This document shows positions 1 through 12,642 of a DNA stretch of 29,499 nt, piece after piece; position 1 is the stretch's first letter; every line of letters starts with the position of its first letter. A program made the translations under genes and the position numbers. Source of the stretch: a virus; the IMG/VR virus record IMGVR_UViG_3300020391_000014, positions 1-29,499 of that record; one strand, 5' to 3'. The notes beneath the pieces are model-generated. The model was not told the origin of the DNA and did not search any database. It saw only the letters and a program-made list of their open reading frames with translations.

Positions 1-386
1 GTGGTGGTTCAGTTCAAACTTCAACATCTTATAATTATTTGTTAACTAAAAATTATTCAAATGATAGTAATCATGGCACAACTTATGACCATGATTTAAA
101 CGGAAATGAAATGATTTTTGGTACTGGTCATTGTGGTGATGGAAGTGATGACTCAGAAATGACTTCAGCAGAAATAGATATTCATCATAGTGCAACAGCA
201 GGAAGATACACAAGAGGATTTTTGAATCGTACTATGGAAAAAAGACATGATGACACTTATCATTATGGAAATGATGGTTCGTTTATGTTTGCATCAAGCA
301 ATGTTTTAGATGGAATACAAATTAGACTGACCACAGGCAATACGTTTACATCATATGGTCATGCACTTTATAAGGTGATGGTGTAA
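1..386 (+). CDS. C-terminal part of a fibre-type virion protein (5' end outside the window)
   Basis: The reading frame is open from the left edge of the window (first full codon at position 3) to TAA at 384-386, so this is the 3' part of a longer gene. A TTG at 39 could be read as a start but has no ribosome binding site, and the frame continues upstream of it. The visible 128 residues are rich in Asn, His, Asp, Gly and Thr. They end in DGIQIRLTTGN...YGHALYK, which resembles the ends of the LYGIK-type proteins at 1606-2262 and 9069-9809 (VNGIRFFFTGGN...VKLFGIK). It is therefore probably another member of that beta-sandwich family and a tail-fibre or appendage component. The role is inferred from paralogy and position. 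The stop overlaps the next ATG by 1 nt (TAATG), so translation is probably coupled to the assembly chaperone. Confidence 0.75.
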   Translation, partial: GGSVQTSTSYNYLLTKNYSNDSNHGTTYDHDLNGNEMIFGTGHCGDGSDDSEMTSAEIDIHHSATAGRYTRGFLNRTMEKRHDDTYHYGNDGSFMFASSNVLDGIQIRLTTGNTFTSYGHALYKVMV

Positions 387-685
387 TGACAACAAGAATT
401 AAATCAGTAGACGGAAAAATAGTTCCTTTATCAACCGAAGAAGAAAATCAATTTAAGATTGATAAAGAGAATTACGAAAAAGATTTTAGAAGAATTAGAG
501 ATGAAAGAAATCGTCTATTACAAGAAACAGATTGGATTGTAATTAGAGAAAGAGAACAAAATGGTTCTGTCCATAACTTTGAAGCATTTATGAAATACAG
601 ACAAGAATTAAGAGATATTCCGACTAAATATAATAAAGTAAGTTTAGTTCAATGGCCGACAAAACCAGAAATTGATTTAGGATAA
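386..685 (+). CDS. Tail fibre assembly chaperone (Phage_tail_APC-like)
   Basis: This 99-residue protein has a charged, helical N-terminal half followed by RDERNRLLQETDW (about residues 39-51) and AFMKYRQELRDIP (about 67-79). This pair matches the R-x-LL-x-x-TDW ... YRQ-x-LRDIP signature of the phage tail assembly chaperone family (PF16778 and relatives). Such proteins help fold or assemble distal tail-fibre parts and are usually encoded just after the fibre they serve. Here the gene overlaps the stop of the fibre-type gene upstream by 1 nt and precedes a run of small fibre-like genes, which fits. Whether it acts on the upstream protein only or on products of all three fibre cassettes is unknown. 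No second copy is seen in cassettes 2 or 3. Confidence 0.8.
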   Translation: MTTRIKSVDGKIVPLSTEEENQFKIDKENYEKDFRRIRDERNRLLQETDWIVIREREQNGSVHNFEAFMKYRQELRDIPTKYNKVSLVQWPTKPEIDLG

Positions 686-689
686 ACAT

Positions 690-1064
690 ATGCCACTATC
701 AAAGATAACAACAAAATCAATTACAGATGGAACTATTGCAGCTGCAGATTTAGCTAGTGATGCAGTTACTTCTGCAAAGATTGCTGATGGTGTTATCGTA
801 ACAGCAGACCTTGCAGATAATTCTATTACCCAAGCAAAAATTAACTCATCTGTTCAATTAGGTGCTGGATATTATATAGATAAAACTGGTTCAGTAGTTG
901 GTAATACAAGTGGTAGAGATAATTTATTTCGTGTAAATACAAATGCAACAACTGGAAATGTTAACATAGCTGCAAACAACAATGCATCTGTCGCTGGGCC
1001 ACTTACAATTGCAAACGGAACAACTTTAACAATTTCAAATACTGGAAGGTTAGTTATATTATGA
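690..1064 (+). CDS. Short fibre-cassette protein, AGPLT family (opens cassette 1)
   Basis: This 124-residue protein has two parts. Residues 1-50 carry imperfect repeats of the form ITDGTIAAADLASDAVTSAKIADG, a motif common in phage tail-fibre proteins. The C-terminal half has NLFRVNTN (about 78-86) and then SVAGPLTIANGTTLTI, ending in a hydrophobic beta strand. The same C-terminal half occurs in the proteins at 5666-5974 and 8072-8398, and each of the three opens a cassette of fibre-like genes. A virion structural role is inferred and no enzymatic motif is seen. AGGA at 680-683 serves as ribosome binding site. The stop overlaps the next start (ATGA). It could be a short anchor or connector to which longer fibres attach, but that is speculation. 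Confidence 0.7.
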   Translation: MPLSKITTKSITDGTIAAADLASDAVTSAKIADGVIVTADLADNSITQAKINSSVQLGAGYYIDKTGSVVGNTSGRDNLFRVNTNATTGNVNIAANNNASVAGPLTIANGTTLTISNTGRLVIL

Positions 1065-1609
1065 GTACTTTATCTGTAAATACAATAACACCACAAACTG
1101 GTACTACCACTACAATAAATGCAAATACAGTTGTTTCATCTGGTAAAACCTTTACTGCGCCTGGCTCTGTGATTCAAATTGTAGGTAATACTAATTCAAC
1201 ATATAATGGTGGTGCGAGTGCTGGTCTAGCAAATGATGATACAATACCACAACAATCAGAAGTACATATGTGTGTAGAAGTAAATATAACACCTAGATTT
1301 GCAAACAGTAAATTGTATATACAAGCGAGTATTCCTGGCGGTCATCAAAACAACACAAAATCAGCTTGTTGTTTATTTAAAGATAGTGGTGGAGCAATAC
1401 AAGTTCTACCTCAATATTTTGAAACTAATAATGTGAGTGCTTCTTGGAATTTAACACATTTTATGGATGCTGGTTCAACTGCTACTGCTACTTTCAAAGT
1501 GGGATTAGGTGGTAATAGTGGTAACCATTATCAAAATGGTGATGCATCAAGTAGAAAATATGGTGGTGCTTCTGCTTCTACGATAGTGATTATGGAGATT
1601 GCACAATGA
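1061..1609 (+). CDS. Fibre-like virion protein, LMEI-type C-terminal domain
   Basis: A 182-residue protein. Residues 1-36 form the N-terminal module MSTLSVNTITPQTG... that recurs, with variation, at the start of most proteins in the three cassettes. The C-terminal domain contains VNITPRFANSKLYIQASI (about 74-91) and ends in STIVIMEIAQ. The same landmarks (ITP-x-SSSK-x-L and a terminal S-x-I-x-LMEI) define the proteins at 2272-2892, 7163-7672 and 10477-10989, so these are four paralogues. This is probably a trimeric beta-sandwich appendage or receptor-contact protein, inferred from composition, context and paralogy. Both ends overlap neighbours by 4 nt (ATGA), indicating translational coupling through cassette 1. 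Confidence 0.7.
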   Translation: MSTLSVNTITPQTGTTTTINANTVVSSGKTFTAPGSVIQIVGNTNSTYNGGASAGLANDDTIPQQSEVHMCVEVNITPRFANSKLYIQASIPGGHQNNTKSACCLFKDSGGAIQVLPQYFETNNVSASWNLTHFMDAGSTATATFKVGLGGNSGNHYQNGDASSRKYGGASASTIVIMEIAQ

Positions 1610-2262
1610 GTACATTAAACGTAGGAACAATCGCATCAAAAACTGGAAATTCTTCAATAACAATTGCTGATAATGGTAATACTACTATTGCAAACGGAGT
1701 AACTTTAAACTCTAGTGTTGAACAAAGTGGTTCTACTTTACCACAATTAGGTATGTTCAAACTTTTAGACACTACAATATCAAGTGCTGTTTCTGAATTT
1801 GATATATCATCCACAAATATAAATTCTACATTTGATGATTATTTTTGTATATTTAATTTAAGAGCCGCAGGGGATAACGAAGATTTAGCATTTAGAGTTT
1901 TTGTTGGAGGAGTTATTCAAACTGGAAATATTTATGGTTATGAAATTGCAGCTTTATCTAGTTCCACTTACGAAGGTAGTAATGCAAATAATCTTGGAAA
2001 GTTTAATGTGACTAATATTGGTAATGCTACTGGAGAGAATATAAGTGGTCATTTTTATATGCACAATGTTAATAGCACGACTCATCCTTTTAATATGATG
2101 GGTCAATCAACACAATATAATACCTCTGGTTTACCAAATTCAAATCATTTTTCTAATCATTTAATACCTGCTAACGTAGCTAATGTTGTTAATGGAATTA
2201 GATTCTTTTTTACTGGTGGTAATATAGCTGCTGGTAGAGTAAAATTATTTGGAATTAAATAA
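1606..2262 (+). CDS. Fibre-like virion protein, LYGIK-type C-terminal domain
   Basis: A 218-residue protein with the recurring N-terminal module (residues 1-48, MSTLNVGTIASKTGNSSITI) joined to a C-terminal domain starting at MFKLLDTTISS (about residue 50) and ending in GGNIAAGRVKLFGIK. The domain is clearly paralogous to the protein at 9069-9809: KLLD-x-TISS, INST-x-DDY, GNATGEN, DVVNG or NVVNG followed by a GGNIA segment and a terminal VKL-x-GIK all align. The N-terminal linkers of the two differ, so linker and head domain evolve separately. It is probably an adhesin-like tail or fibre component. The sequence around its 3' end (2243-2267) recurs exactly at 7133-7157, downstream of a different gene. 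Confidence 0.7.
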   Translation: MSTLNVGTIASKTGNSSITIADNGNTTIANGVTLNSSVEQSGSTLPQLGMFKLLDTTISSAVSEFDISSTNINSTFDDYFCIFNLRAAGDNEDLAFRVFVGGVIQTGNIYGYEIAALSSSTYEGSNANNLGKFNVTNIGNATGENISGHFYMHNVNSTTHPFNMMGQSTQYNTSGLPNSNHFSNHLIPANVANVVNGIRFFFTGGNIAAGRVKLFGIK

Positions 2263-2267
2263 GGAAA
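2243..2267 (+). repeat. Direct repeat copy 1 (3' end of LYGIK-type gene plus downstream spacer)
   Basis: These 25 nt, covering the codons for the last residues (LFGIK), the TAA stop and the following AAGGAAA, are identical to 7133-7157. A shorter 17-nt part (from GGAATT) also occurs at 9798-9814 after another LYGIK-type gene. The repeat spans a gene end and the ribosome binding site of the next gene, so homologous exchange here would swap whole downstream or upstream genes without breaking frames. Confidence 0.8.
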
Positions 2268-2271
2268 TAAA

Positions 2272-2892
2272 ATGAGCACATTAAAAGTTGGAACAATTGC
2301 AGACCACGCTAATGGTAATAGTGCAATAACTATAGATAGTTCTGGTAATACCAGTATTCCATCTGGTAGAGTTTTAAATGCTCCTGGCCATATTCTTCAA
2401 GTTGCACAAGGTAAATTTCTTGGTAATGAAGTTTCAAACGCATCTGATTTTGTTGATATTACAAATTTAACTGCAACACTTACTCCAGCAGCAGCTACAA
2501 GTAAATTTTTGATTACATTTCATGTCAACGCAAGTGCAAATGATAATCAAAGAGGTGGTATTAGAGTAGTAAGAAGTATTGGTGGTGGTTCTTTCAGTAC
2601 TTTTGATTTACCAGATTTTAGTGCTGGCTCTTTAGGTGGTGCGACTACTTCTCAAGGTAGTAGACTACGAGCCCATAGTATCTTTACTGGCAGAGGTTCA
2701 AATTTACCAAATGACTCAACCACAATGACTTTATTTGACCATCCAAATACAACATCTGCTGTAACTTATAAGGTTCAAGGTATGGTAGAGGGGTCAAATT
2801 ACATTTATATCAATACTTTTCAAACATTCACTGATGCAAATACGATATTTGCACCTATATCTACATTAACTCTTATGGAAGTTGCTGGTTAA
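2272..2892 (+). CDS. Fibre-like virion protein, LMEI type (closes cassette 1)
   Basis: A 206-residue protein with N-terminal module MSTLKVGTIADHANGNSAITI and linker IDSSGNTSIPSGRVLNAPG (residues 1-39). Its LMEI-type C-terminal domain contains TATLTPAAATSKFLITFHV (about 67-85) and ends in STLTLMEVAG. It belongs with 1061-1609, 7163-7672 and 10477-10989. AAGGAA at 2261-2266 provides the ribosome binding site. It is the last gene before a perfect late-promoter box (2911-2918), and each of the three cassettes ends with this family. The virion role is inferred and the ligand is unknown. Confidence 0.7.
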   Translation: MSTLKVGTIADHANGNSAITIDSSGNTSIPSGRVLNAPGHILQVAQGKFLGNEVSNASDFVDITNLTATLTPAAATSKFLITFHVNASANDNQRGGIRVVRSIGGGSFSTFDLPDFSAGSLGGATTSQGSRLRAHSIFTGRGSNLPNDSTTMTLFDHPNTTSAVTYKVQGMVEGSNYIYINTFQTFTDANTIFAPISTLTLMEVAG

Positions 2893-2910
2893 TCTCAAAC
2901 ACATTTTCCT

Positions 2911-2918
2911 TATAAATA
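2911..2918 (+). promoter_or_regulatory. T4-type late promoter, perfect TATAAATA box
   Basis: TATAAATA followed by CT matches the T4 gp55-dependent late promoter consensus. In T4 transcription starts about 6 nt past the box, which here would be near 2924, giving a leader of only about 13 nt that still holds AAAAAGGA (2922-2929) before the ATG at 2937. It would drive the small beta protein and genes 13-14-15. Confidence 0.75.
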
Positions 2919-2936
2919 CTTAAAAAGGATTGTGTA

Positions 2937-3269
2937 ATGGCACTCATTGAAAATATATTTATTGACCAAGACGCTGATTTTTCAAAAACAATCACAGCAA
3001 AAGATTCTACTGGAACAGTTATTAATTTATCTGGATTTTCAGTTGCAGCTATGTTGAGAAAAAATCATCTCTCATCTACTTCAGTAAGTTTTACTACAAG
3101 TATAACAAGTGCATCTGATGGAACAATTACAATAACACTTACCGACACACAAACAGCTGCATTAGAAGCTGGTCGTTTTGTTTATGATGTTGTCATAACA
3201 TCTAGTGGTGGATTAAAGACAAGAGTTGTTGAGGGTCAAGCAACAATCAATCCTAGTGTAACGAGGTAG
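2937..3269 (+). CDS. Small beta-rich virion protein upstream of gene 13
   Basis: A 110-residue protein beginning MALIENIFIDQDADFSKTI, followed by a DSTGTVINLSGFSVAAMLRK segment (about residues 23-42) and a GRFVYDVVITSSGG-x-KTRVVEG segment near the end. The pattern (a modification of a physical input, then tolerance of values, then a YDV strand) resembles the small immunoglobulin-like or BppU-N-like proteins found beside neck and baseplate genes in many phages. It is a probable structural protein of the tail or neck region, and its exact position in the particle is unknown. It is the first gene behind a perfect late promoter and lies 6 nt before gene 13, with which it must be cotranscribed. 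Confidence 0.65.
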   Translation: MALIENIFIDQDADFSKTITAKDSTGTVINLSGFSVAAMLRKNHLSSTSVSFTTSITSASDGTITITLTDTQTAALEAGRFVYDVVITSSGGLKTRVVEGQATINPSVTR

Positions 3270-3275
3270 AACAAT

Positions 3276-4091
3276 ATGGCAATTCCTTCAACAAAAGCAA
3301 CTTTCAAAGAATATTGTTTGAGAAGTTTAGGTAAACCAGTTATTGATATAAATGTTGATGATGACCAAGTAGATGATAGAATAGATGAAGCACTTCAATA
3401 TTTTGCACAATATCATTATGATGGTGTAGAAAGAGTTTATCTAAAACACGCAATCACACAAGCAGAAATAGATAGAGCTGCAACTAATTCTTCTGAAAGT
3501 GTAACTGATAAATTAGATAATTCTATAAGTGCAACATGGTTAGAGGGAAAAGGTTTTATACCAGTTCCAGATACAATTGTTTCAGTTATTAAAATCTTTG
3601 ATTTCACAGATAAAAATACAACCAATATGTTTGATATTCGTTATCAACTTCGTCTGAATGATTTATATGATTTCAGTAGTGAATCAATCATCCATTATCA
3701 CATGACCAGACAACATTTAGATTTTCTTGACCATATTCTCGTTGGTGAAAAACCAATAAGATTCAATCAACATCAAAATCGTTTGTATATAGATATGGAT
3801 TGGAAAAATGATTTAGCAGCTGGTGAGTTTTTTATTATCGAAGCATATAGAAAATTAAATCCAAACACCTTGACAGATATATATGATGATATATTTCTAA
3901 AAAGATATGCGACTGCATTAATTAAAAGACAATGGGGTGCAAACTTATCTAAGTTTGAAGGAGTTCAAATGTTAGGTGGAGTTACTCTAAATGGTGCGAA
4001 GATTTTTGAAGAAGCACAAGCAGACCTAGAAAAATTAGAAGAACAAATTCAACTTGCATATGAGTTACCACCAGATTACATGATGGGATAA
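3276..4091 (+). CDS. gp13: Neck protein gp13 (head completion)
   Basis: A 271-residue protein. The N-terminus TKATFKEYCLRSLGKPVIDINVDDDQVDDRIDEALQYF...YHYDGVERVYLKH (residues about 7-58) matches the highly conserved start of T4-type gp13 of marine myoviruses. gp13 and gp14 form the neck that seals the DNA-filled head and receives the tail. The order 13-14-15 that follows supports the call. It is somewhat shorter than T4 gp13 (309 residues), which is usual for marine relatives. Residues 240-271 end in a Glu- and Gln-rich helix (EEAQADLEKLEEQIQLAYEL) typical of the family. It is cotranscribed with the preceding small gene and is followed 3 nt later by gene 14. Confidence 0.9.
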   Translation: MAIPSTKATFKEYCLRSLGKPVIDINVDDDQVDDRIDEALQYFAQYHYDGVERVYLKHAITQAEIDRAATNSSESVTDKLDNSISATWLEGKGFIPVPDTIVSVIKIFDFTDKNTTNMFDIRYQLRLNDLYDFSSESIIHYHMTRQHLDFLDHILVGEKPIRFNQHQNRLYIDMDWKNDLAAGEFFIIEAYRKLNPNTLTDIYDDIFLKRYATALIKRQWGANLSKFEGVQMLGGVTLNGAKIFEEAQADLEKLEEQIQLAYELPPDYMMG

Positions 4092-4094
4092 GTT

Positions 4095-4832
4095 ATGGGA
4101 ACAAACGTATATTTTAATACTGGTACTCAATCTGAAAAAAATCTATATGAAGATTTAATGATTGAACAACTCAGAATTTATGGACAAGATGTTTTTTATA
4201 TTCCAAGAACATTAGTTAAGGAAGATGAACTTCTTGGAGAAGATGTATTGTCTAAATTTGGTGATGCATATCAGATAGAAATGTACTTTGAAAATGTAGA
4301 AGGATATGAGGGTGAAAAAGAAATCATGTCCAAGTTTGGTTTACAAATGAACGAAGATGTTACATTTGTTGTATCAAGAAGAAGATTTGAACAGCTTGTA
4401 TCAACGGATAGTAATTTAATTATCAAGACAAGACCCAATGAGGGTGACTTAATTTATTTTGACAAAGTAAAAAAGATGTTTGAAATATCTTTTGTAGACC
4501 ATGATGACCCTTTCTATCAAGTACACAATATACCAGCTTTTAAACTTAAATGTAAAACCTTTCAGTATTCTGGTGAGGATTTGGATACTGGTATCGAAGA
4601 GATTGATGCAATTGAATCTGCAAACTCTCTGGATATGTTACAACATCAATTAACACTAGAAGATGGTACTGGACAAATACAACTTGAAACTGGTGACTAT
4701 ATAATACAAGAGAGTTTTGTTGTTGACACAATTGATGAAAACGCAATGAATGATTTCTTTGATAAACAAGATGACACGATATTAGATTTTACAGAATCTA
4801 ATCCATTCGGTGATATAGGGAAAGTAGGATAA
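4095..4832 (+). CDS. gp14: Neck protein gp14
   Basis: A 245-residue protein starting MGTNVYFNTGTQSEKNLYEDL, followed by IYGQDVFYIPRTL and LLGEDVLSKF-x-DA and by EMYFENVEGYEGE and SKFGLQM-x-EDVTF segments. This chain of motifs is characteristic of T4 gp14, a neck protein that joins gp13 at the head-tail interface. T4 gp14 is 256 residues, so the length agrees. It starts 3 nt after gene 13 and ends 1 nt before gene 15, so the three are tightly packed and probably translated together. Confidence 0.92.
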   Translation: MGTNVYFNTGTQSEKNLYEDLMIEQLRIYGQDVFYIPRTLVKEDELLGEDVLSKFGDAYQIEMYFENVEGYEGEKEIMSKFGLQMNEDVTFVVSRRRFEQLVSTDSNLIIKTRPNEGDLIYFDKVKKMFEISFVDHDDPFYQVHNIPAFKLKCKTFQYSGEDLDTGIEEIDAIESANSLDMLQHQLTLEDGTGQIQLETGDYIIQESFVVDTIDENAMNDFFDKQDDTILDFTESNPFGDIGKVG

Positions 4833-4833
4833 T

Positions 4834-5646
4834 ATGTTAGGACAACAATTTTACCATGAAACAATGCGAAAGGTTGTGGTAGCCTTTGGAACAATCTTTA
4901 ATAATATTAATATTGTAAGAACAAATAGTTCTGGTGAAGTAACACAAAGTATGAAAGTTCCACTTGCATATGGCCCAAAACAAAAGTTTTTGACAAGATT
5001 AAGAGAAGATGCAACTCTAACAAAAAAAGTTGCACTTACTTTACCAAGAATAGGTTTTGAAATATCTGGCATAGCTTATGATGCATCCAGAAAACTTAAT
5101 TCTATACAAAAATTAAAAAAAGTAAATTCATCAACTGATGGTAAAACTATGAGTTCACAATTTATGCCTGTTCCATATAATATGGATTTTTCATTAGCAG
5201 TCATGGCAAAGAACTCTGATGATGCGTTACAGATTGTAGAACAGATATTACCATTCTTTCAACCAGATTATACAATTACATTAAATGATAATACTGCAAT
5301 GGGAACAACAAGAGATGTTCCAATTATTTTAAATGGTGTATCATACGAAGATTCTTATGAGGGTGATTTTTCAGAGAGAAGAGTATTAGTATATACATTA
5401 ACTTTTACATCTAAGTTTTATCTCTATGGCCCAGTAACAGACCAGAAGGTTATTAAGTCTGTACAAGTTGACCAGTATACAGATGTTCAAGTTAATGCAC
5501 CTAAGAGAGAACAAAGATATACAGTCGCACCGTCACCATCTAGTGCAGATGCAGATGACAATTTTGGATTTAACGAAACTACATCATTCTTTCAAGATGC
5601 TCAAAATTTTAATGAGGTAACTGGTGAGGATGATGATGACTCCTAA
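4834..5646 (+). CDS. gp15: Tail completion and sheath stabiliser gp15
   Basis: A 270-residue protein, nearly the same length as T4 gp15 (272). Family landmarks are FYHETMRKVVVAFGTIFNNI near the N-terminus, PLAYGPKQKFLTRL (about 44-57) and LPRIGFEISGIAYDA-x-RKLN. gp15 forms the terminator ring on the upper end of the contractile tail, stabilises the sheath and binds the neck. The C-terminal region is acidic (GEDDDDS) and its last codons overlap a late-promoter-like box (5642-5649) that serves the next block. In T4, gene 16 follows directly, but here a four-gene fibre cassette lies between 15 and 16. Confidence 0.93.
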   Translation: MLGQQFYHETMRKVVVAFGTIFNNINIVRTNSSGEVTQSMKVPLAYGPKQKFLTRLREDATLTKKVALTLPRIGFEISGIAYDASRKLNSIQKLKKVNSSTDGKTMSSQFMPVPYNMDFSLAVMAKNSDDALQIVEQILPFFQPDYTITLNDNTAMGTTRDVPIILNGVSYEDSYEGDFSERRVLVYTLTFTSKFYLYGPVTDQKVIKSVQVDQYTDVQVNAPKREQRYTVAPSPSSADADDNFGFNETTSFFQDAQNFNEVTGEDDDDS

Positions 5647-5649
5647 ATA
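5642..5649 (+). promoter_or_regulatory. T4-type late promoter variant (CCTAAATA)
   Basis: CCTAAATA followed by CT, then AAAAAGGAA and ATG at 5666, mirrors the arrangement at 2911-2937 (TATAAATACT, then AAAAAGGA, then ATG). The box overlaps the end of gene 15. Predicted initiation near 5655 leaves a leader of about 11 nt. It would transcribe cassette 2, gene 16, cassette 3 and gene 17, as no other late box is seen before 12642. Confidence 0.6.
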
Positions 5650-5665
5650 CTAAAAAGGAATAAAC

Positions 5666-5974
5666 ATGGCAATCAGAAAAATAAATAGTCGTTCAATTGA
5701 AGATGGTTCAATCGCAACAGCAGATATAGCAAACAATGCAGTAACAGATGCAAAGTTTTCTGGTTCTTCTGGTGCTGGATTTTTTATTGGTGAAAACGGT
5801 TCAACTGGTGATGCATCAAATGGTAAAGGTGATATCTTTCGTGTGAATGAATCAACTTTAAATACTAGTGTGACAATTGCATCTGGTGATAACGCATCAG
5901 CAGCTGGGCCATTAACGGTATCAAGTTCTGGTACAGTAAATTTAGTAGTATTAGGTAATCTAACAATAGTTTAG
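5666..5974 (+). CDS. Short fibre-cassette protein, AGPLT family (opens cassette 2)
   Basis: A 102-residue paralogue of the protein at 690-1064. It starts with the same repeat type (INSRSIEDGSIATADIANNAVTDAKF, residues 6-31), then GDIFRVNESTLNTSV (about 54-68), then SAAGPLTVSSSG, and ends in a hydrophobic strand LTIV. A 14-nt DNA segment encoding the AAGP motif (5900-5913) is identical at 8330-8343 in the third family member. It has its own late promoter and SD (AAAAAGGA). It is probably a small tail or fibre component, with no biochemical function assignable. Confidence 0.7.
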   Translation: MAIRKINSRSIEDGSIATADIANNAVTDAKFSGSSGAGFFIGENGSTGDASNGKGDIFRVNESTLNTSVTIASGDNASAAGPLTVSSSGTVNLVVLGNLTIV

Positions 5975-5983
5975 GAAAATAAA

Positions 5984-6490
5984 ATGGCTGGAACACTAAC
6001 AGTAGATAATGCAAATGTAGATACAATTTTAAATAAAGCAGGTAGTGGTGGTACTAATGTTAAAATAAACAATACCTCTACTTATGTGGGTGAAGGTGGT
6101 GCTGGAACACAGAACGCTGTACAAGGTATAGCTAAAGTTTGGATTGCTTATGATAATCAAGTAGGACAAGGCGGTAATACTAATACTGAATACATATGGG
6201 ATAGTTTTAATGTTGGTGGTTTTACAGACCATGCAAGTGGCCTTTCAACTGTAACTTATACTAATGCTATGAATGGTACTAAGTATGCAGTAGCAGCAAT
6301 GTCAAATACACAGTCTGATTCAAGAAAATTGAATGTATTATGTTTTGAGTTAGACCAAACTAATGCTGGTACTGCACCCACTACAACCAGTATAAAAGTT
6401 GAAAATATTGCTGGTTCAAATGGTTCTGGTGGTGGTGTAGGACAAGACCCTAAACTTGCTTCTTTTACAATACACGGAGACTTAGCATAA
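5984..6490 (+). CDS. Fibre-like virion protein, GIAKVW/NGTKYAV domain
   Basis: A 168-residue protein. After a short N-terminal segment (MAGTLTVDNANVDTILNKAG), residues about 46-110 contain GIAKVWIAYDN, then DSFNVGGFTDHASGLSTVTYTNAMNGTKYAVAAM. This is the recurring phage tail domain in which a KVW-x-x-F/Y strand is followed by S-x-NV...D-x-G-x-Y and then M-x-x-x-x-YAV. It occurs at the ends of many marine phage fibre proteins. Only this one copy exists in the window, in contrast to the LMEI, LYGIK and AGPLT families. The stop overlaps the next ATG (TAATG). Confidence 0.65.
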   Translation: MAGTLTVDNANVDTILNKAGSGGTNVKINNTSTYVGEGGAGTQNAVQGIAKVWIAYDNQVGQGGNTNTEYIWDSFNVGGFTDHASGLSTVTYTNAMNGTKYAVAAMSNTQSDSRKLNVLCFELDQTNAGTAPTTTSIKVENIAGSNGSGGGVGQDPKLASFTIHGDLA

Positions 6491-7125
6491 TGGCATCAAC
6501 ACTTAAAGTACAAAATATTGCACATACTGGTGGAACAACTGCTGCTACTGTAAGTAGTGGTGGAGTAGTTACATTTCCTAATAAACCAATAGGTGCATCA
6601 CCAATAGATATTATAGCAAATAGTACAACTGCTGTTAGTGGTGCTGCAAATATAGAAATAGATTTATCAACAGATACAAATTATATCATGCAACAAATAA
6701 TATTATTTGATGTTTTAGCTTCTACTAATCAAGATATGTATCTGTATTTAAGAACAACTGGAGGTTCATTCAGAGAAAGCAGTAATGAATATGAATGGGT
6801 AGTGATGGAAAGAAAAAATGGAGTTGATACTAATGGAACTGGGTCAAATGGAGATAGCAAAATAAGACTTAATTGGTATAGCGTAGGAACAACCTCAGAT
6901 GAGAAATGTATATTTACATTAAACTTTTTCCATGCAGGTTCAACTAATCGCACAACAGTAGGTTGGAATGGAATTGGTACTGCAAGTGATGGACACCCAG
7001 TAGTTAGAGAAGGTAGTGGAAAAGTTTTAGTAGATGAAAGTAATGATAAAATAAGATTAACTATTAATAGTGGAAATATATCTGCTGGTGGGTATGTACA
7101 TTACGGATATAGGAGAACGCTATGA
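6490..7125 (+). CDS. Fibre-like virion protein, divergent LYGIK-type
   Basis: A 211-residue protein with N-terminal module MASTLKVQNIAHTGGTTAATV (residues 1-21) and a head domain that runs from about residue 38 to KIRLTINSGNISAGGYVHYGYRRTL. The last strands align with GIRFFFTGGNIAAGRVKLFGIK of the LYGIK family, but the terminal motif differs. The gene ends with TGA at 7123-7125. Immediately downstream and in the same frame lies a fossil VKLFGIK-stop sequence (see 7126-7152), so this gene appears to have replaced an earlier LYGIK-type gene at this site. It is probably an appendage protein, with ligand unknown. Confidence 0.65.
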   Translation: MASTLKVQNIAHTGGTTAATVSSGGVVTFPNKPIGASPIDIIANSTTAVSGAANIEIDLSTDTNYIMQQIILFDVLASTNQDMYLYLRTTGGSFRESSNEYEWVVMERKNGVDTNGTGSNGDSKIRLNWYSVGTTSDEKCIFTLNFFHAGSTNRTTVGWNGIGTASDGHPVVREGSGKVLVDESNDKIRLTINSGNISAGGYVHYGYRRTL

Positions 7126-7152
7126 CAAGTATAATTATTTGGAATTAAATAA
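7126..7152 (+). pseudogene. Fossil 3' end of a lost LYGIK-type fibre gene
   Basis: Directly after the TGA at 7123-7125 the same frame reads Gln-Val-stop-Leu-Phe-Gly-Ile-Lys-stop. This matches the end of the protein at 1606-2262 (Val-Lys-Leu-Phe-Gly-Ile-Lys-stop) apart from one A-to-T change that turns the AAA lysine codon into TAA. The DNA at 7133-7157 is identical to 2243-2267. Because the gene just upstream already has its own end, this is a leftover from an earlier gene, and it is not a readthrough extension. Confidence 0.7.
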
Positions 7153-7157
7153 GGAAA
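7133..7157 (+). repeat. Direct repeat copy 2 (fossil LYGIK gene end)
   Basis: These 25 nt are identical to 2243-2267. The downstream AAGGAAAATTAAATGAGT also matches the spacer after the gene at 9069-9809 with a 1-nt length difference. Copy 2 provides the ribosome binding site of the LMEI-type gene at 7163, as copy 1 does for the LMEI-type gene at 2272. Confidence 0.8.
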
Positions 7158-7162
7158 ATTAA

Positions 7163-7672
7163 ATGAGTACATTATTTGTAAATAATTTAAAAAATGCAGC
7201 TGGTAACGGTATACCTTATACAACTGGTGCAGTATTACAAGTTAAAAATGCTATATTAACTACTCACTTTGAATTTACAAATACAAGCTTTGTTGATATT
7301 ACTGGTTTAACAGTAAATATAACTCCTAATTCTAGCAATAGTAAAATGTTAGTAACAGCTCATCTTGGTGCAGTTTCTGGAGGAGGAGCACATGCACAAA
7401 TGTTTGGATTCGTTAGAGATAGTACAGTAATAGGACAATCTACATCATCTGCAACTACGCTTGCATCATTTGGTCAATATTATGGTAATAACACTCAATA
7501 TTTTGCACCTATGTCTGGTCAAGTATTAGATGAACCAAATACAACAAGTCAAATAACTTATAAATTGCAAGGTAAAACTTCTGGAAGCACTACTTATATA
7601 AATAGGTGGGCATCAAATAACAGTCAATTTGGATTTAGTTCAAGCATTACAGTTATGGAAATAGGTGGATAA
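7163..7672 (+). CDS. Fibre-like virion protein, LMEI type (closes cassette 2)
   Basis: A 169-residue protein with a reduced N-terminal module (MSTLFVNNLKNAAGNG) followed by the LMEI-type domain: FVDITGLTVNITPNSSNSKMLVTAHL (about 43-68), LDEPNTTSQITYKLQGKT, and a terminal SSITVMEIGG. The segment NTTS-x-x-TYK-x-Q is shared with the protein at 2272-2892 (NTTSAVTYKVQGM), which supports close paralogy. AAGGAAAA at 7151-7158 is the SD. The stop overlaps the start of gene 16 (TAATG), so fibre and terminase translation are coupled here, which is unusual for T4-like phages. Confidence 0.7.
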   Translation: MSTLFVNNLKNAAGNGIPYTTGAVLQVKNAILTTHFEFTNTSFVDITGLTVNITPNSSNSKMLVTAHLGAVSGGGAHAQMFGFVRDSTVIGQSTSSATTLASFGQYYGNNTQYFAPMSGQVLDEPNTTSQITYKLQGKTSGSTTYINRWASNNSQFGFSSSITVMEIGG

Positions 7673-8070
7673 TGGTTAAAAGTTCTGTAGATGTTTTAGA
7701 TAATGTTCTAGGTATCACAGATGTTGTGGAAACAAGCACATCTACAGTAACATTACCAAATGTAAAAGTACCAGAAGAAGTTGACAATGATTATAAGTAT
7801 CAGAGAGAAAACTTCTATCGTTTAGTAGAAAGAGGACAAGATGCAATAGATGGAATATTAGAACTTGCAAAAGAAAGTGAACACCCTCGTTCATATGAAG
7901 TTGCTGGTAATCTAATTAAACAAGTTGCAGACGTTACAGAAAAGTTAGGTGATTTACAAGTCAAGATGCAGAAATTAAAAGAAGTTCCAAATAACGCACC
8001 GAAGAATGTAACTAACGCATTATTTGTTGGTTCAACTTCAGAACTTCAAAAAATGTTAAAAGGAAAGTAA
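7672..8070 (+). CDS. gp16: Terminase small subunit gp16
   Basis: A 132-residue protein with a disordered N-terminus, then NDYKYQRENFYRLVERGQDAIDGILELAKESEHPRSYEVAGNLIKQVADVTEKL (residues about 38-91), which is the central helical hairpin diagnostic of T4-like gp16. A basic tail (NAPKNVTNALFVGSTSELQKMLKGK) follows. gp16 forms a ring that regulates the packaging motor gp17 and recognises DNA for packaging. T4 gp16 is 164 residues. In T4 it overlaps gene 17, but here it is separated from gene 17 by five fibre-like genes (cassette 3) and from gene 15 by cassette 2. Confidence 0.88.
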   Translation: MVKSSVDVLDNVLGITDVVETSTSTVTLPNVKVPEEVDNDYKYQRENFYRLVERGQDAIDGILELAKESEHPRSYEVAGNLIKQVADVTEKLGDLQVKMQKLKEVPNNAPKNVTNALFVGSTSELQKMLKGK

Positions 8071-8071
8071 T

Positions 8072-8398
8072 ATGTCTACATTAACACAAGTTGGAAATAC
8101 TTCAATTGAAGGTAACACAACGACACTTGCAGCTGGAGATATAGACCCCTCTAATGATACACTTATAGTTTTTGATACATCTACTTCATCATTAAAAAGA
8201 GTTAGTTCTAGTGCTTTAGGTGGTGGGTCTTTCAAAGGTGATGCTGGGGGTGGATTAAAAGATATATTCAGAGTCCATGAAGCACAACTAGATACTAATT
8301 TAACTTTTGATGCTAATACTAACTCACTTGCAGCTGGGCCATTGACAATTGCAAGTGGTGTAACATTAACAATTAACGGAAGTGTAACAATCGTATGA
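8072..8398 (+). CDS. Short fibre-cassette protein, AGPLT family (opens cassette 3)
   Basis: A 108-residue protein whose C-terminal half (KDIFRVHEAQLDTNLTFDANTN, then LAAGPLTIASGVTLTI and a terminal SVTIV) matches 690-1064 and 5666-5974. Its N-terminal half is different: it lacks the DGTIAAADLA-type repeats and instead begins MSTLTQVGNTSIEGNTTTLAAGDIDPSNDTLIVFD. It thus shows domain exchange within this short family. SD AAAGGAAA lies at the end of gene 16. The stop overlaps the next ATG by 4 nt. Confidence 0.7.
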   Translation: MSTLTQVGNTSIEGNTTTLAAGDIDPSNDTLIVFDTSTSSLKRVSSSALGGGSFKGDAGGGLKDIFRVHEAQLDTNLTFDANTNSLAAGPLTIASGVTLTINGSVTIV

Positions 8399-9069
8399 GT
8401 ACAATCAAAGTAGATACAATTACAGCAAGAGCTGGTTCTGGAACAGTTTCATTAACGTCTGGTAATAATCTTTCAGTTGCTGGTACTTCAACATTTACTG
8501 GAGCTGCAACTTTTGGTGAGATAAGACCTAATAACATTGCAAGTACAAGTGGTACAAACGCAATATCTATTTCTAGTGGTGGTGTAGTTACTCTTTCACA
8601 ATCTTCACAAAGAGCTCAATCATTTAGGTTAAGTCAAAATGTAAGTGGTGGAAATAATTTACAAGAATTTACACCATTTGAAGAAACAGACACAGACTAT
8701 ACAAGAGTGGGAAGTGCTAATTGGACATTTAATGGAGGTTTTTTTACTGTCGCACAAACTGGCACATATTTATGTTATTATCATTGTTCAATACTTGCTG
8801 GTGGTGGTGGCGATGAATTTGATTTAGGTGTGCAGATAAGTACAAATGGTGGTGCCTCTTATAATACTAGAGCAAGAACTTTTGGATTTGAAAATGGTCA
8901 AAAAAATAGTGCAAGTAATCAATTTATTTTTACTGTTTCAGCTACAAGTGGATTCAGATTGAGAATGATTGCAGGCGAAGTAAATACTATTGCGACTGCA
9001 ACTACAATATTAGGTAATACGAGCATGACTGAAACTGGAATAATGTTTGTAAAGCTAGGAGTGATTTGA
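8395..9069 (+). CDS. Fibre-like virion protein with C1q/TNF-like C-terminal domain
   Basis: A 224-residue protein. Residues 1-70 contain the recurring N-terminal module (MSTIKVDTITARAGSGTVSL) plus beta-repeat segments (GNNLSVAGTSTFTGAA, SGTNAISISSGGVVTLS). Residues about 75-224 look like a C1q/TNF-type jelly roll: W-x-F-x-GGFFTVAQTGTYLCYYHCSI is the typical F-x-V-x-x-x-G-x-Y-x-x-x core, and the end is ETGIMFVKLGVI. C1q-like domains trimerise and bind surface ligands, which would suit a receptor-contact tip. That is an inference from pattern only. The DNA at 8461-8501 is almost identical to 9138-9178 in the next gene. Confidence 0.68.
   Translation: MSTIKVDTITARAGSGTVSLTSGNNLSVAGTSTFTGAATFGEIRPNNIASTSGTNAISISSGGVVTLSQSSQRAQSFRLSQNVSGGNNLQEFTPFEETDTDYTRVGSANWTFNGGFFTVAQTGTYLCYYHCSILAGGGGDEFDLGVQISTNGGASYNTRARTFGFENGQKNSASNQFIFTVSATSGFRLRMIAGEVNTIATATTILGNTSMTETGIMFVKLGVI
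8461..8501 (+). repeat. Direct repeat A, copy 1 (N-terminal fibre module)
   Basis: These 41 nt match 9138-9178 with two differences. They encode GNNLSVAGTS-x-FTG in the N-terminal modules of two adjacent fibre-like genes whose C-terminal domains are unrelated (C1q-like against LYGIK-type). Confidence 0.8.
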
Positions 9070-9809
9070 TGTCATCAAAAATTAAAGTAGACTCAATTGA
9101 AACTGTATCTGGAAGTGGTACAATATCCATACCAACTGGTAATAATCTTTCAGTTGCTGGAACTTCATCATTTACTGGTGCGTTAACTGCTGCAGATATT
9201 AGAGCTACTGCAATAAAAAGTTCAACTGGTAATACTGCAACTACAATCGCAAATGACGGCACAGTAACTTTTGCAAGTCCTCCAACTGGTGCTGGGTCTA
9301 TGATTAAATTATTAGATGCGACAATATCTAGTTCAGTAGCAAATTATGATATTACATCTACACATATAAATTCTACATATGATGATTATTTACTTATAAC
9401 CAATTTAGCTCCAGCAGCAGATAATAATAACCTTTTAATGAGAATATTTATTGGTGGTGGACTTAGAACTGATAGTATATATGCTTATGAAGTTGCAAGA
9501 ACCAGTAGTAGTTCTTACAATGAATCAAATGCAGAAAGTTATTTTAGACTACAACTTAGTGGTGTTGGAAATGCAACAGGCGAAAATATACTAGTCAAAA
9601 TTCATTTACATAATATAAACTCTTCAAATTTTGCTTTTAATTATACTGGTATGACAAATATATTTAATACAAATGGTACACATAATGGTCACTCCGTAAC
9701 TGGTTCTTTACTTGTTACAAAGGTAAGTGATGTTGTAAATGGATTAAGATTTTATTTTAATGGTGGTAATATAGCTAGTGGAACTGTTAAATTATATGGA
9801 ATTAAATAA
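9069..9809 (+). CDS. Fibre-like virion protein, LYGIK-type C-terminal domain
   Basis: The ATG at 9069 is preferred to the TTG at 9066, because it forms the usual 1-nt overlap (TGATG) with the gene before, giving 246 residues. Residues 1-75 hold the N-terminal module (MSSKIKVDSIETVSGSGTISI), a segment shared with the previous gene (GNNLSVAGTSSFTGA) and one shared with the following gene (DIRATAIKSSTGNTATTIANDG). From MIKLLDATISSS (about 78) to GGNIASGTVKLYGIK it is the closest paralogue of the protein at 1606-2262. It is probably an appendage or adhesin protein. The protein reads as a mosaic: one N-terminal block is shared with the left neighbour, another with the right neighbour, and the head with cassette 1. 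Confidence 0.7.
   Translation: MSSKIKVDSIETVSGSGTISIPTGNNLSVAGTSSFTGALTAADIRATAIKSSTGNTATTIANDGTVTFASPPTGAGSMIKLLDATISSSVANYDITSTHINSTYDDYLLITNLAPAADNNNLLMRIFIGGGLRTDSIYAYEVARTSSSSYNESNAESYFRLQLSGVGNATGENILVKIHLHNINSSNFAFNYTGMTNIFNTNGTHNGHSVTGSLLVTKVSDVVNGLRFYFNGGNIASGTVKLYGIK
9138..9178 (+). repeat. Direct repeat A, copy 2
   Basis: Partner of 8461-8501 (39 of 41 nt identical), in the N-terminal module of the LYGIK-type gene. Confidence 0.8.
9195..9254 (+). repeat. Direct repeat B, copy 1
   Basis: These 60 nt, coding for DIRATAIKSSTGNTATTIAN, match 9951-10010 at 52 of 60 positions, including an uninterrupted 25-nt identity centred on AAAAGTTCAACTGG. The two copies sit at the same place in the N-terminal regions of neighbouring genes with unrelated C-terminal domains. 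Confidence 0.78.
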
Positions 9810-9818
9810 GGAAATTAA

Positions 9819-10475
9819 ATGAGTCAAATAACAGTAACAAATATTCAAGGTCAAACTTCTGGTGGTAATGCAAACAAAGTTATTATAACATCTGGTCATA
9901 CATTAGAGGTAACAAGTAACTCTACGATAGGTGGTTCACTTACTGCACCAGATATTAGAGCTACAACTATTAAAAGTTCAACTGGTAATACTGCAATAAC
10001 AGTTGCAAATAATGGTAATATTACTACTAATAATATAGTTACACCAAAAACTACAAGTTTTGTATTTGTATATGCACAAGGTTCAAATGGTTATAACACA
10101 GTTGCTACTGATTCATATTTACCTTTAAATGCTATATATCAAAGCAAAGGTACTGGGTCATCTAATTATAATACTTCAACATATAAGTATACAGCACCAG
10201 TTAATGGAATTTATTTTATTTCTTTAGCTGGAATAACTAACTCAACAAGTACATCTGGTCATTTTGATTTGGATATTAATGGCACAAAACAATATGTTTT
10301 AACATGGACTGATGGTAGAGATTATCATAGTTCAGTACATCAATATTTAAATGCTGGAGAAGTTGTTGGATTTAAAAGTGCTAATACTTCTGGTTATTAT
10401 AGACATAGTGATAGTTTACCAAGTGCCTCACATTATACTTATGGTATTTTTAATTTAATTCAGGAGCTAGTATAA
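9819..10475 (+). CDS. Fibre-like virion protein with C1q-like C-terminal domain
   Basis: A 218-residue protein. Residues 1-75 hold the N-terminal module MSQITVTNIQGQTSGGNANKVII, then linker segments including DIRATTIKSSTGNTAITVANNG, shared with the gene before. Residues about 79-218 look like a second C1q/TNF-like domain: TYKYTAPVNGIYFISLAGIT is the F-x-AP-x-x-G-x-YF core, HFDLDINGTK is a central strand and YLNAGEVVGFKS is the L-x-x-GD-x-V strand of the fold. It is probably a trimeric appendage tip. AAGGAAA at 9808-9814 is the SD. Confidence 0.68.
   Translation: MSQITVTNIQGQTSGGNANKVIITSGHTLEVTSNSTIGGSLTAPDIRATTIKSSTGNTAITVANNGNITTNNIVTPKTTSFVFVYAQGSNGYNTVATDSYLPLNAIYQSKGTGSSNYNTSTYKYTAPVNGIYFISLAGITNSTSTSGHFDLDINGTKQYVLTWTDGRDYHSSVHQYLNAGEVVGFKSANTSGYYRHSDSLPSASHYTYGIFNLIQELV
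9951..10010 (+). repeat. Direct repeat B, copy 2
   Basis: Partner of 9195-9254 (52 of 60 nt identical), in the N-terminal region of the second C1q-like gene. Confidence 0.78.
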
Positions 10476-10476
10476 C

Positions 10477-10989
10477 ATGGCATTAACAAAATTAAATGCT
10501 GCAGCTTTACCAGCTGGTAGTGTAATACAAACAATATCAAGTGAATTTAATACTCCAAGTTCATTTAGTTCAACTACAACTTCAAATACTTCTACAGATG
10601 TTATGTCTGCTACAATTACACCAAAGTTTTCTTCAAGTAAAATTTTAGTTAAAGTAAAAGTTACTGCTGGTGCTGCTGGTGTTAACTATGAATTTTCTTG
10701 TGGAGTAAAAAGAGGCTCTACTAGAATTGGCGGCAATACTGACCCCACTGATTTATTTTTAGGTAATAATATTGGTGCTTCTGGTCATCCAGCTGGTGAA
10801 GGGCCAACAACTGTATACTTTGAAACTTTAGATTCTCCAGCGACAACTAGTGCAACAACCTATACTAGTTATATTTATGGTGGTGAATCTTCTACTTATT
10901 ATATTAATCGAGGAAATTCTACAAATAATACAAGACTTTGGGCTAACTCTGGTAATTCTACAATTACATTAATGGAGATTAAGGTTTAA
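10477..10989 (+). CDS. Fibre-like virion protein, LMEI type (closes cassette 3)
   Basis: A 170-residue protein. Its N-terminus (MALTKLNAAALPAGSVIQTI) lacks the usual MSTL module. The LMEI-type domain follows: SATITPKFSSSKILVKVKVTAG (about 44-65), a SPATTSATTYTSYI segment and a terminal STITLMEIKV. It is the fourth member of the family with 1061-1609, 2272-2892 and 7163-7672. AGGAGCT lies just before the previous stop and serves as SD. It ends 6 nt before gene 17. Confidence 0.7.
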   Translation: MALTKLNAAALPAGSVIQTISSEFNTPSSFSSTTTSNTSTDVMSATITPKFSSSKILVKVKVTAGAAGVNYEFSCGVKRGSTRIGGNTDPTDLFLGNNIGASGHPAGEGPTTVYFETLDSPATTSATTYTSYIYGGESSTYYINRGNSTNNTRLWANSGNSTITLMEIKV

Positions 10990-10995
10990 TCAGAA

Positions 10996-12642
10996 ATGTC
11001 AGATATAAACCACTATCTTGGAAATCCTCTACTTAAAAAAGCAAATGTTCAAGTAGAATGGACACAAGAACAAATTCTAGAATATAAAAAGTGTATGGAT
11101 GACCCTCTGTACTTTTGTAAGACATACATAAAGATTGTTAGTCTTGATGAGGGTCTTGTTCCTTTTGATGTATATCCATTTCAAAAAGAAATGTTAGGAA
11201 CAATTCATAATAATCGTTTTACTATTTGTAAACTCCCCAGACAATCTGGTAAGACAACTACAATTATATCTTATATACTTCACTATGTTCTATTCAACGA
11301 ACAGATGAGAGTAGCGATACTTGCAAACAAAGCTGCGACTGCAAGAGATATTCTTTCACGACTTCAACTTGCATATGAAAATCTACCAAAGTGGATGCAA
11401 CAAGGAGTTATGTCTTGGAATAAAGGTTCTCTGGATTTAGAGAATGGTTCTCGTATCGTTGCATCTTCTACATCTTCAAGTGCAGTTCGTGGTGGTTCAT
11501 ACAATATGATATTCTTGGATGAGTTTGCTTTCGTACCTCACAATGTTGCAGAGGATTTTTTTAGTTCTGTGTATCCTACAATTTCTTCTGGACAAAGTAC
11601 AAAAGTTGTGATAGTATCAACACCAAATGGTATGAATCTTTTTTACAAACTTTGGTCTGATGCAGAGAGTGGTAAAAATTCTTATCAACCTATTGAAGTA
11701 CATTGGAGTGAAGTGCCTGGCCGTGATGAAAAATGGAAAACAGAAACTATTGCAAACACTTCTCAAGAACAATTTAATCGTGAATTTGAATGTGAGTTTT
11801 TAGGTTCTATCAATACTCTTATACATCCAACTAAAATTAAATCTATGGTTTTTGAAGAACCTATACAACGAAATGCTGGTTTAGAATTGTATAAGAAACC
11901 AGAAAAAGGTAGAACATACTCATTGATTGCTGATGTCGCAAGAGGAACGGAACAAGACTACTCTGCATTTTTAGTTTTTGATGTATCTGAACTCCCATAT
12001 CGTATTGTTGCAAAATATCGCAACAACGAAATTAAACCTTTACTATTTCCAAATATCATTCATGACGTTGCAAAGGCATACAATAACGCATATGTAATGA
12101 TTGAGGTGAATGATATTGGAGAACAAGTTGCAACTGCAATGCAATATGATTTAGAATATGATAACTTAATAATGGCATCTATGCGTGGTAGAGCTGGTCA
12201 AATATTAGGAACTGGATTTTCTGGTGGTAAAGTACAATTAGGTGTAAGAACAACTAAAGCAGTAAAAATGTTAGGATGTTCAAATCTAAAACAATTGATT
12301 GAAACAGATAAACTAATTATAAATGATTATGATACTATAACAGAGTTTTCTACTTTTGTCAAACATGGACAATCATTTCAAGCAGAAGAAGGACACACAG
12401 ATGACCTTGCAATGTGTTGTGTATTGTTTGGGTGGATGACTAATCAAACTTACTTCAAAGAATTGACTAATGTAGATATACGAGAAAGAATGTTTTTAGA
12501 ACAACAACAACAATTAGAACAAGATATGGCTCCTTTTGGTTTTGTTGATGATGGTATTAATGACCCTATGGGAGAAACGGTAATTGATGAATACGGACAA
12601 AAATGGAGTCCAGTAGTAAGAAACTATGATAGCAGTTGGTAA
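10996..12642 (+). CDS. gp17: Terminase large subunit gp17 (packaging ATPase and nuclease)
   Basis: A 548-residue protein (T4 gp17 has 610). The ATPase domain shows Walker A PRQSGKTT (81-88), Walker B MIFLDE (171-176) and coupling motif VSTPNG (207-212). The C-terminal RNase H-like nuclease domain shows IADVARG with Asp313, VMIE with Glu370 and GHTDDLA with Asp469/470 as likely metal-binding acids. gp17 pumps DNA into the prohead through portal gp20 and cuts the concatemer. All catalytic landmarks are present, so it should be active. The C-terminus is Gln-rich (about 506-514). The gene follows fibre cassette 3 with no promoter of its own visible, and converges with the minus-strand gene, leaving only 4 nt between the two stops. 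Confidence 0.96.
   Translation: MSDINHYLGNPLLKKANVQVEWTQEQILEYKKCMDDPLYFCKTYIKIVSLDEGLVPFDVYPFQKEMLGTIHNNRFTICKLPRQSGKTTTIISYILHYVLFNEQMRVAILANKAATARDILSRLQLAYENLPKWMQQGVMSWNKGSLDLENGSRIVASSTSSSAVRGGSYNMIFLDEFAFVPHNVAEDFFSSVYPTISSGQSTKVVIVSTPNGMNLFYKLWSDAESGKNSYQPIEVHWSEVPGRDEKWKTETIANTSQEQFNREFECEFLGSINTLIHPTKIKSMVFEEPIQRNAGLELYKKPEKGRTYSLIADVARGTEQDYSAFLVFDVSELPYRIVAKYRNNEIKPLLFPNIIHDVAKAYNNAYVMIEVNDIGEQVATAMQYDLEYDNLIMASMRGRAGQILGTGFSGGKVQLGVRTTKAVKMLGCSNLKQLIETDKLIINDYDTITEFSTFVKHGQSFQAEEGHTDDLAMCCVLFGWMTNQTYFKELTNVDIRERMFLEQQQQLEQDMAPFGFVDDGINDPMGETVIDEYGQKWSPVVRNYDSSW

Follow-up and report, generated by a model that had tools for sequence, protein, structure and literature searches.

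Candidate adhesin cassettes with slot-bound anchors and exchangeable heads around gp13–gp17 of a marine T4-like virus

Introduction

The structural module of T4-like phages is a familiar site of gene gain in marine viruses. According to the available part of a review (PMC2984593, covering Millard 2009), 4–14 genes are inserted between g15 and g18 in cyanomyoviruses, in what has been called a hyperplastic region, and the interval between gp16 and gp17 has been published as a hot spot (PMC3037559). The present analysis concerns a 29,499-base IMG/VR virus fragment (record IMGVR_UViG_3300020391_000014, hereafter the window, meaning its whole length) from a marine virus of bacteria that is T4-like (Kyanoviridae), in which three sets of small genes stand around the core genes gp13–gp17: cassette 1 (690–2892), cassette 2 (5666–7672) and cassette 3 (8072–10989). 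Its nearest cultured relatives are Kyanoviridae, namely Melnitz, which grows on Methylophilales, followed by Mosig and HTVC008M, which grow on Pelagibacter.

Several fibre systems of marine and related phages offer points of comparison. The accessible text of PMC7029224 describes a host recognition cluster of pelagimyophages, a hypervariable fibre region upstream of gp14 in phages related to the window, and that of PMC3909814 describes C1q-type receptor-binding proteins with a conserved N-terminus and a variable C-terminus in metaviromic islands of marine phages. In Pam3, gp24/gp25 constitute a small trimeric fibre with a TNF-like head and a dedicated chaperone (PMC9608196). Little is known of how marine phages of abundant heterotrophs and picocyanobacteria recognise their changing hosts, and annotation as hypothetical is common among their fibre genes. 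Here, we propose that each cassette of the window is a compact adhesin operon, that is, a set of tail-fibre genes encoding anchored tips with exchangeable heads, and we put the probability of this reading at roughly 0.7.

Organization of the cassettes and proposed mechanism

The 13 cassette genes are all intact open reading frames (ORFs) on a single strand, as an earlier sequence-only reading of the window had listed them, and in most cases they are joined by overlaps, often of one or four bases, or separated by short gaps. With gp13, gp14, gp15 and gp16 assigned via PHROG matches, and gp17 and gp18 recognised from alignments with annotated phages, cassette 2 is found between gp15 and gp16 and cassette 3 between gp16 and gp17. 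Both thus interrupt the core run, as had been claimed. Cassette 1 adjoins a BppU/LtfC-like gene (2937–3269) upstream of gp13 and splits nothing, so the same claim fails for it. Extra genes between gp15 and gp18 are present in the window and in its relatives alike.

Nor do the 13 genes form one paralogous family, as had been supposed; they have N-terminal anchor types in common and carry at least five head types. In phmmer comparisons among the window proteins, relatedness is evident within the AGPLT group (three proteins, E-values of 1e-9 to 1e-23), the LMEI group (four proteins, 8e-3 to 1e-14) and the LYGIK pair (1606–2262 versus 9066–9809, 4e-52). PHROG tail-fibre families are matched by the openers and several tips.

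In the mechanism that we envisage, the opener of each cassette (102–124 amino acids (aa) in the window) would be a very short shaft, the last ~50 residues of which, the AGPLT module, would terminate a trimeric fibre shaft. Behind it come three genes (four in cassette 3) that would encode small tip proteins, each composed of a constant, position-specific N-terminal anchor and a C-terminal receptor-binding head, either a TNF/C1q-like jelly roll or one of other types. The anchors may dock on the AGPLT end, such that several different heads would be displayed per cassette at once, and the three cassettes together would place about ten heads on a virion. The probable effect is adaptation of host range with the attachment parts left unchanged. 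The cassette genes sit amid late structural genes around gp13–gp17, and their products are presumably carried on virion fibres, with a role in host choice.

Gene order in relatives

About 300 IMG/VR loci around gp13, gp15, gp16 and gp17 were mapped with profiles built from the window genes, and gene order was counted over distinct complete intervals holding AGPLT, 33 between gp15 and gp16 and 25 between gp16 and gp17. The AGPLT gene stands first in all 25 of the latter; among the former, it is first in 20 and second in 13, preceded there by one tip gene, which belongs to slot F where inspected. A dedicated opener, as postulated from the window, is therefore well founded in the relatives. The number of tips is likewise stable, being exactly three in 33/33 gp15–gp16 cassettes and in 20/25 gp16–gp17 cassettes. 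Four cassettes located before gp13 (those of the window, L181, L241 and L249) read AGPLT, three tips and then the BppU-like gene. In the window itself, cassettes 1 and 2 have three tips each, with slot-specific anchors, and cassette 3 has three anchored tips together with one unanchored LMEI gene.

The dedicated LMEI closer that had been proposed for the other end of each cassette has to be abandoned. Of the 33 gp15–gp16 intervals, 31 close with a PF16778-type chaperone gene and two with LMEI; in the gp16–gp17 intervals the last gene is usually a small ORF, LMEI taking this place in 2/25. All LMEI-last intervals come from the window and from L086, a relative 97% identical to it, whose contig also appears as L006 and L240. 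Moreover, because two of the four genes of cassette 1, the second and the fourth, are of the LMEI type, LMEI is to be regarded as a head type and not as a closer. Comparison of the gp15–gp16 and gp16–gp17 junctions in relatives, suggested earlier as a check on the cassette plan, thus upholds the opener order, which is general in the clade, and goes against the closer order.

In farther relatives, the intervals are empty, hold unrelated genes or carry single-chain fibres at the same sites. Between gp16 and gp17, such fibres (263–1108 aa) replace the cassette in L109 (8923–9711), L181 (10413–11936), L193 (10421–13744) and L235 (6354–9566). Single-chain fibres measure 677 aa in Melnitz, which has a gp15–gp16 cassette, 1,108 aa in L193 and 263 aa in L109, where the fibre is accompanied by a PF16778-type chaperone. 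One metagenomic relative, L170, has three consecutive NGTK-type tips ahead of gp16.

It could be argued from this variety that g15–g18 is a mere hypervariable landing zone in which small structural genes accumulate without forming ordered assemblies, the common plan being due to inheritance and local duplication. The region is indeed a known hot spot that takes 4–14 genes of many kinds (PMC3037559 and the available part of PMC2984593), and in many relatives its intervals are empty or occupied by unrelated genes. However, the opener, the number of tips and the slot-specific anchors stay constant while the heads turn over almost completely, and the same format is found in T7-like and Zobellviridae phages elsewhere in the genome, which makes this explanation quite unlikely.

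The AGPLT module as a putative shaft end

Phylogenetic analysis of 95 AGPLT sequences indicates that the three cassette positions require two changes, which is the minimum, although the tree is built on few columns and its branching details are weak. Since only two changes are needed, AGPLT genes do not appear to move between positions. The opener of cassette 1 forms its own AGPLT clade with three relatives at the same position. These position-bound lineages, together with the recurrence of the plan in other phage families, bear out the earlier notion of three copies of one plan.

In a further set of IMG/VR loci, the gene stops with the AGPLT module in 80/80, and pattern matches internal to a gene amount to 0/135. 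In the T7-like cyanophage P-SSP7, gp17, an annotated tail fibre of 715 aa, terminates in this module, and tblastn with the end of that protein recovered the module in 101 phage records, many of them annotated as tail fibre. A search of the PDB with AGPLT gave no convincing sequence relative. The best reading of these patterns is that AGPLT represents the C-terminal end of a fibre shaft.

In the cassettes of relatives, tips are interspersed with PF16778 fibre chaperones. Three families of 84–98 aa proteins are found in alternation with tips as well (L087 9732–9983, L087 7948–8211 and L103 8060–8353), one of which (phrog_6228) also sits between tips in S-SBP1 and S-T4; these proteins are possibly tip-specific chaperones. 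The chaperone gene at 386–685 of the window probably serves the fibre gene directly upstream and possibly the cassettes too.

Whether the cassettes belong to the tail may be questioned, as their products, with the same heads and anchors, could build neck, collar or head-surface (whisker-like) appendages for a weak preliminary attachment to the cell. The genes adjoin the neck genes gp13–gp15, and in T4 the wac (fibritin) gene is located just before gene 13. A neck pentadecamer that anchors fibres is described for cyanophage A-1(L) in the available part of PMC10966104. Against this stand the AGPLT end of the T7-like gp17 tail fibre of P-SSP7 and the tail-fibre chaperones that come after the tips, and gene position in phages need not match position in the virion. 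We regard neck appendages as improbable, though less so than the other alternatives, and retain the tail-fibre operon as the preferred reading.

Anchors and slots of the tips

The first ~30 residues of 290 tip genes were sorted into nine anchor types, A–I, that are tied to position: A, B and C occur in the gp16–gp17 interval, D, E and F in the gp15–gp16 interval, and G, H and I before the BppU-like gene. Normalised N-terminal similarity is 0.63 within types versus 0.23 between them, a contrast to be read with the fact that the consensus sequences were hand-written from the first loci and slot assignment is partly built in. Clustering without the hand-written consensus agrees, with A–F separate save for a partial mixing of the B and C types. 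In L094 (2364–5762) and L204, the gp16–gp17 cassette has slot F and D/G-like anchors normally found elsewhere, and the gp15–gp16 interval is reduced to a chaperone, an apparent transfer of tips between cassettes.

Variability and exchange of the heads

After removal of heads with normalised similarity of at least 0.3, the head set comprised 185 distinct heads. When loci with a gp16 identity of 90% or more were compared slot by slot (677 pairs), the median identity of gp16 itself was 95%, that of the anchors 80% and that of the heads 23%, with AGPLT identity at 74–85% in the same comparison. The window and L086 differ in the same manner: core genes are 96–100% and AGPLT 89–97% identical, the first 20 residues of the tips 75–100%, and the heads mostly 10–40%, tip 6490–7125 alone being unchanged. 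In slot A, the head is C1q-like in the window (9819–10475) and LMEI in L086.

Alignments also revealed near-identical heads on unrelated anchors in different phages, at L178 slot A and L198 slot B, at L173 slot E (gp15–gp16) and L106 slot B (gp16–gp17), and at L185 slot D and L201 slot E, which implies that heads move between positions. Taken together, the comparisons of related genomes show heads to have been exchanged, evidently by recombination both within and between cassettes, with openers, anchors, tip number and position fixed. A 30-base stretch at 7128–7157, which repeats the 3' end of a LYGIK-type head gene and follows a different head gene, is best read as the scar of a head replacement; because this relic is kept in L086, the replacement would predate the split of the two viruses. 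Among 112 gaps scanned for such 3'-end scars, the one in the window was the only one seen, and scars of this kind are not recurrent. Repeated linker DNA in the window (9176–9259/9932–10015 at 81% and 2160–2326/9707–9873 at 73% identity) could supply homology for head exchange.

Three copies of one plan with different heads might also suggest alternative modules, of which DNA inversion or some other switch would leave a single one active at any time, and the sequence-only reading had raised alternative modules as one of two options. No strong inverted repeats surround the heads of the window, and the ORFs are all intact, co-directional and often overlapping, suggesting joint translation. Switching is hardly credible on these grounds.

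Fold and types of the heads

The LMEI protein at 7163–7669 was modelled as a monomer with AlphaFold2, at a predicted local distance difference test (pLDDT) score of 81.7, as an eleven-strand jelly roll. Its closest structure is the Photorhabdus TNF-like lectin PLTL (9ib7; Z 16.3, root-mean-square deviation (rmsd) 1.7 over 122 residues), followed by the N-terminal domain of BC2L-C and then by Pgp3, BclA and C1q/TNF heads. The LMEI head is thus predicted to be a TNF/C1q-like jelly roll near trimeric lectins. It has the predicted fold in common with the TNF-like lectins PLTL and BC2L-C (Z 15–16, rmsd 1.7–2.4 over ~122 residues) but differs from them in sequence (18–21% identity), and a common fold is no proof of sugar binding. 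An LMEI-type domain is also found at the C-terminus of 'orf22', a solved 658-aa protein present in 18 chains of PDB 9efk (chain AE, E 7e-21), which could offer an experimental view of this head type.

The C1q-like label given earlier is a weak one in the window itself, where 9819–10475 matches Pfam C1q below the cut-off (E 0.06) and 8395–9069 does not match; in a set of 71 related tip proteins, 17 do match C1q, six match Peptidase_S74, and BclA_C and others are found too. A tblastn search of phages with the LYGIK tip gave no match. The head folds, the fibre chaperones and the hypervariability of the heads lend good backing at the sequence level to the idea that the cassettes encode receptor-binding modules.

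The three tips of a cassette might instead make up one heterotrimeric head, in the manner of the A, B and C chains of C1q, on the trimeric AGPLT end. Such an arrangement would fit a tip number of exactly three, the shaft end being presumably trimeric, and P-SSP7, Sf-FR1, S-RIM44 and Mel-JY33 each have three heads of one type and similar length. In the window clade, however, head lengths are uncorrelated within cassettes (spread p 0.21 and 0.68), and the heads of one cassette are no more alike than those of different phages. S74 heads, which trimerise themselves in known fibres, also occur among the tips. As head lengths and types are independent within a cassette, the heterotrimer is disfavoured and must be considered very unlikely. 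The three tips may rather make up a single branched tip, be distributed at random over shafts or be arranged in series.

Features of the window

The features of the window are collected in Table 1. The head type of the tip at 5984–6490 recurs in tips of Mel-JY33. Megablast of 600–11000 against phages gave no match. A late promoter of its own for each cassette was considered and rejected, ATAAATA matches (15 observed against 17.7 expected) being no more frequent than by chance. Between gp17 and gp18, a small minus-strand gene with CxxC motifs (12647–12943) possibly encodes a homing or recombination endonuclease; most relatives have a minus-strand ORF of ~100 aa at this place.

Table 1. Cassette genes and adjoining features of the window, with the evidence for each
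Feature	Position	Strand	Evidence
Phage tail assembly chaperone (PF16778)	386..685	+	Pfam match (E 5e-14); PHROG match, tail fibre assembly (E 4e-17)
Cassette 1 opener, fibre-shaft repeats (SITDGTIAAADLA..) and AGPLT putative shaft-end module	690..1064	+	phmmer; PHROG tail fibre matches; tree
Cassette 1 tip 1, anchor MSTLSVNTI.., LMEI-type head	1061..1609	+	phmmer; gene order in relatives
Cassette 1 tip 2, anchor MSTLNVGTIASKTG, LYGIK-type head common to 9066-9809	1606..2262	+	phmmer E 4e-52; phrog_14820
Cassette 1 tip 3, anchor MSTLKVGTIxDHxN, LMEI-type head	2272..2892	+	phrog_6942 tail fibre C-terminus E 5e-12
BppU/LtfC-like beta-sandwich protein, after cassette 1 also in relatives	2937..3269	+	phrog_3304 E 3e-25
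Cassette 2 opener with AGPLT putative shaft-end module	5666..5974	+	tree; 97% identity to L086
Cassette 2 tip with NGTKYAV-type head (terminating in GDLA) on slot D-like anchor	5984..6490	+	phrog_11355, a tail fibre family (E 1e-9)
Cassette 2 tip, slot F anchor (MASTLKVQNIAHTGGT), head distantly LYGIK-like	6490..7125	+	~100% identity to L086
Relic of 3' end of LYGIK-type head gene, in 37-nucleotide gap	7128..7157	+	29/30 versus 2238-2267; 27/30 versus 9785-9814; blastn E 1e-7
Cassette 2 tip, LMEI head on slot E anchor (MSTLFVNNL)	7163..7672	+	AlphaFold2 model; structure matches
gp16 (terminase small subunit), separating cassettes 2 and 3	7672..8070	+	phrog_445 E 3e-44
Cassette 3 opener with AGPLT putative shaft-end module	8072..8398	+	phmmer; tree; 89% identity to L086
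Cassette 3 tip with MSTIKVDTI anchor (assigned to slot C by eye) and weakly supported C1q-like head	8395..9069	+	
Cassette 3 tip, LYGIK-type head on slot B anchor (MSSKIKVDSIE)	9066..9809	+	phmmer; anchor typing
Cassette 3 tip, C1q-like head on slot A anchor (MSQITVTNIQGQTSGG)	9819..10475	+	phrog_15750 E 4e-8
Cassette 3 extra LMEI gene, without typical anchor, only in window and L086	10477..10989	+	phrog_6942 E 7e-15

Occurrence in other phages and weight of the evidence

A shaft end followed by three tips is also found in P-SSP7, SS120-1, S-SBP1, S-T4, S-RIM44, Sf-FR1, Mel-JY33, MEP402 and ICBM1. As a large number of heads in these wider phages fit no profile, the tips there were counted by visual inspection of lengths and N-termini. 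Two podovirus-like loci, L327 and L328, have a long gp17-like shaft with tips and then a second AGPLT opener of 106 aa with further tips. As these short openers resemble those of the window, the window cassettes can be viewed as short versions of a format present in several marine phage families.

Several observations count against the adhesin-operon reading. The relatives are non-independent samples, and the number of tips is not universal, being 0, 1, 2 or more than three in several of the wider phages. Cassettes 2 and 3 of the window have no chaperone gene, unlike nearly all relatives. The structure model of AGPLT is unusable (pLDDT 57), so the docking of anchors on AGPLT gains no support from it. 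Finally, slots D and E carry LMEI heads almost exclusively, which means that head exchange is not free.

A broader proposal, tentative and in our estimate rather unlikely as a whole, is that several marine phage families have in common a so far undescribed adhesin system of the plug-and-socket kind, in which the AGPLT shaft end would seat three non-equivalent tips through their own anchors and present three heads at once. Heads would be traded between slots, cassettes and phages, and the window would have multiplied the unit to three cassettes and ten heads. Head swapping is a plausible way to keep pace with changing hosts. In practice, the rule of anchor, head and AGPLT provides a simple means to find and name tips across genomes, predicts which part docks and which part binds, allows head exchange to be measured directly in metagenomes, and yields testable complexes in cultured P-SSP7 and Melnitz.

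Comparison with known systems

The earlier statement that no T4-type system has been described in this way needs to be divided. Fibre genes in the hypervariable g15–g18 region are known, as are the g15–g18 insertions (available part of PMC2984593) and the gp16–gp17 hot spot (PMC3037559); the AGPLT end module, slot-specific anchors, the rule of an opener plus three tips and head transfer between slots, and with them the spread of the slot rule across phage families, were not found among the open-access papers that were searched, most subscription papers lying outside this scope. The g15–g18 region of cyanomyoviruses and the gp16–gp17 hot spot agree with the window in position and high variability, but the known cases are discussed, in the available part of the review, mainly as carriers of host metabolic genes, whereas the window contains ordered adhesin cassettes as read here.

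Cassette 1 has a positional counterpart in the host recognition cluster of pelagimyophages (PMC7029224). As presented in the accessible text, this cluster is one large island with glycosyltransferases, and neither an opener-plus-three-tips rule nor gp15/gp16/gp17 cassettes are described there. The C1q receptor-binding proteins of PMC3909814 resemble the window tips in head type and in their constant and variable ends, yet in the portion available they are single genes in other marine phage contigs, with no multi-slot cassette or slot-to-slot transfer of heads described. The Pam3 fibre (PMC9608196), which shares with the cassettes the traits given in the Introduction, consists of one fibre protein with its own helical shaft, without an AGPLT end and without a three-tip set.

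The closest parallel is P-SSP7, in which, as in the window, a shaft ending in AGPLT is followed by exactly three small tip genes and a small ORF. All three tips are of the LMEI type (hidden Markov model E 1e-23 to 1e-33), and the following ORF is 96 aa long; the P-SSP7 literature that was searched held no virion data on these small fibre proteins. The two differ in that P-SSP7 has a 715-aa shaft and a single cassette, whereas the window has its much shorter openers and three cassettes in a T4-like genome.

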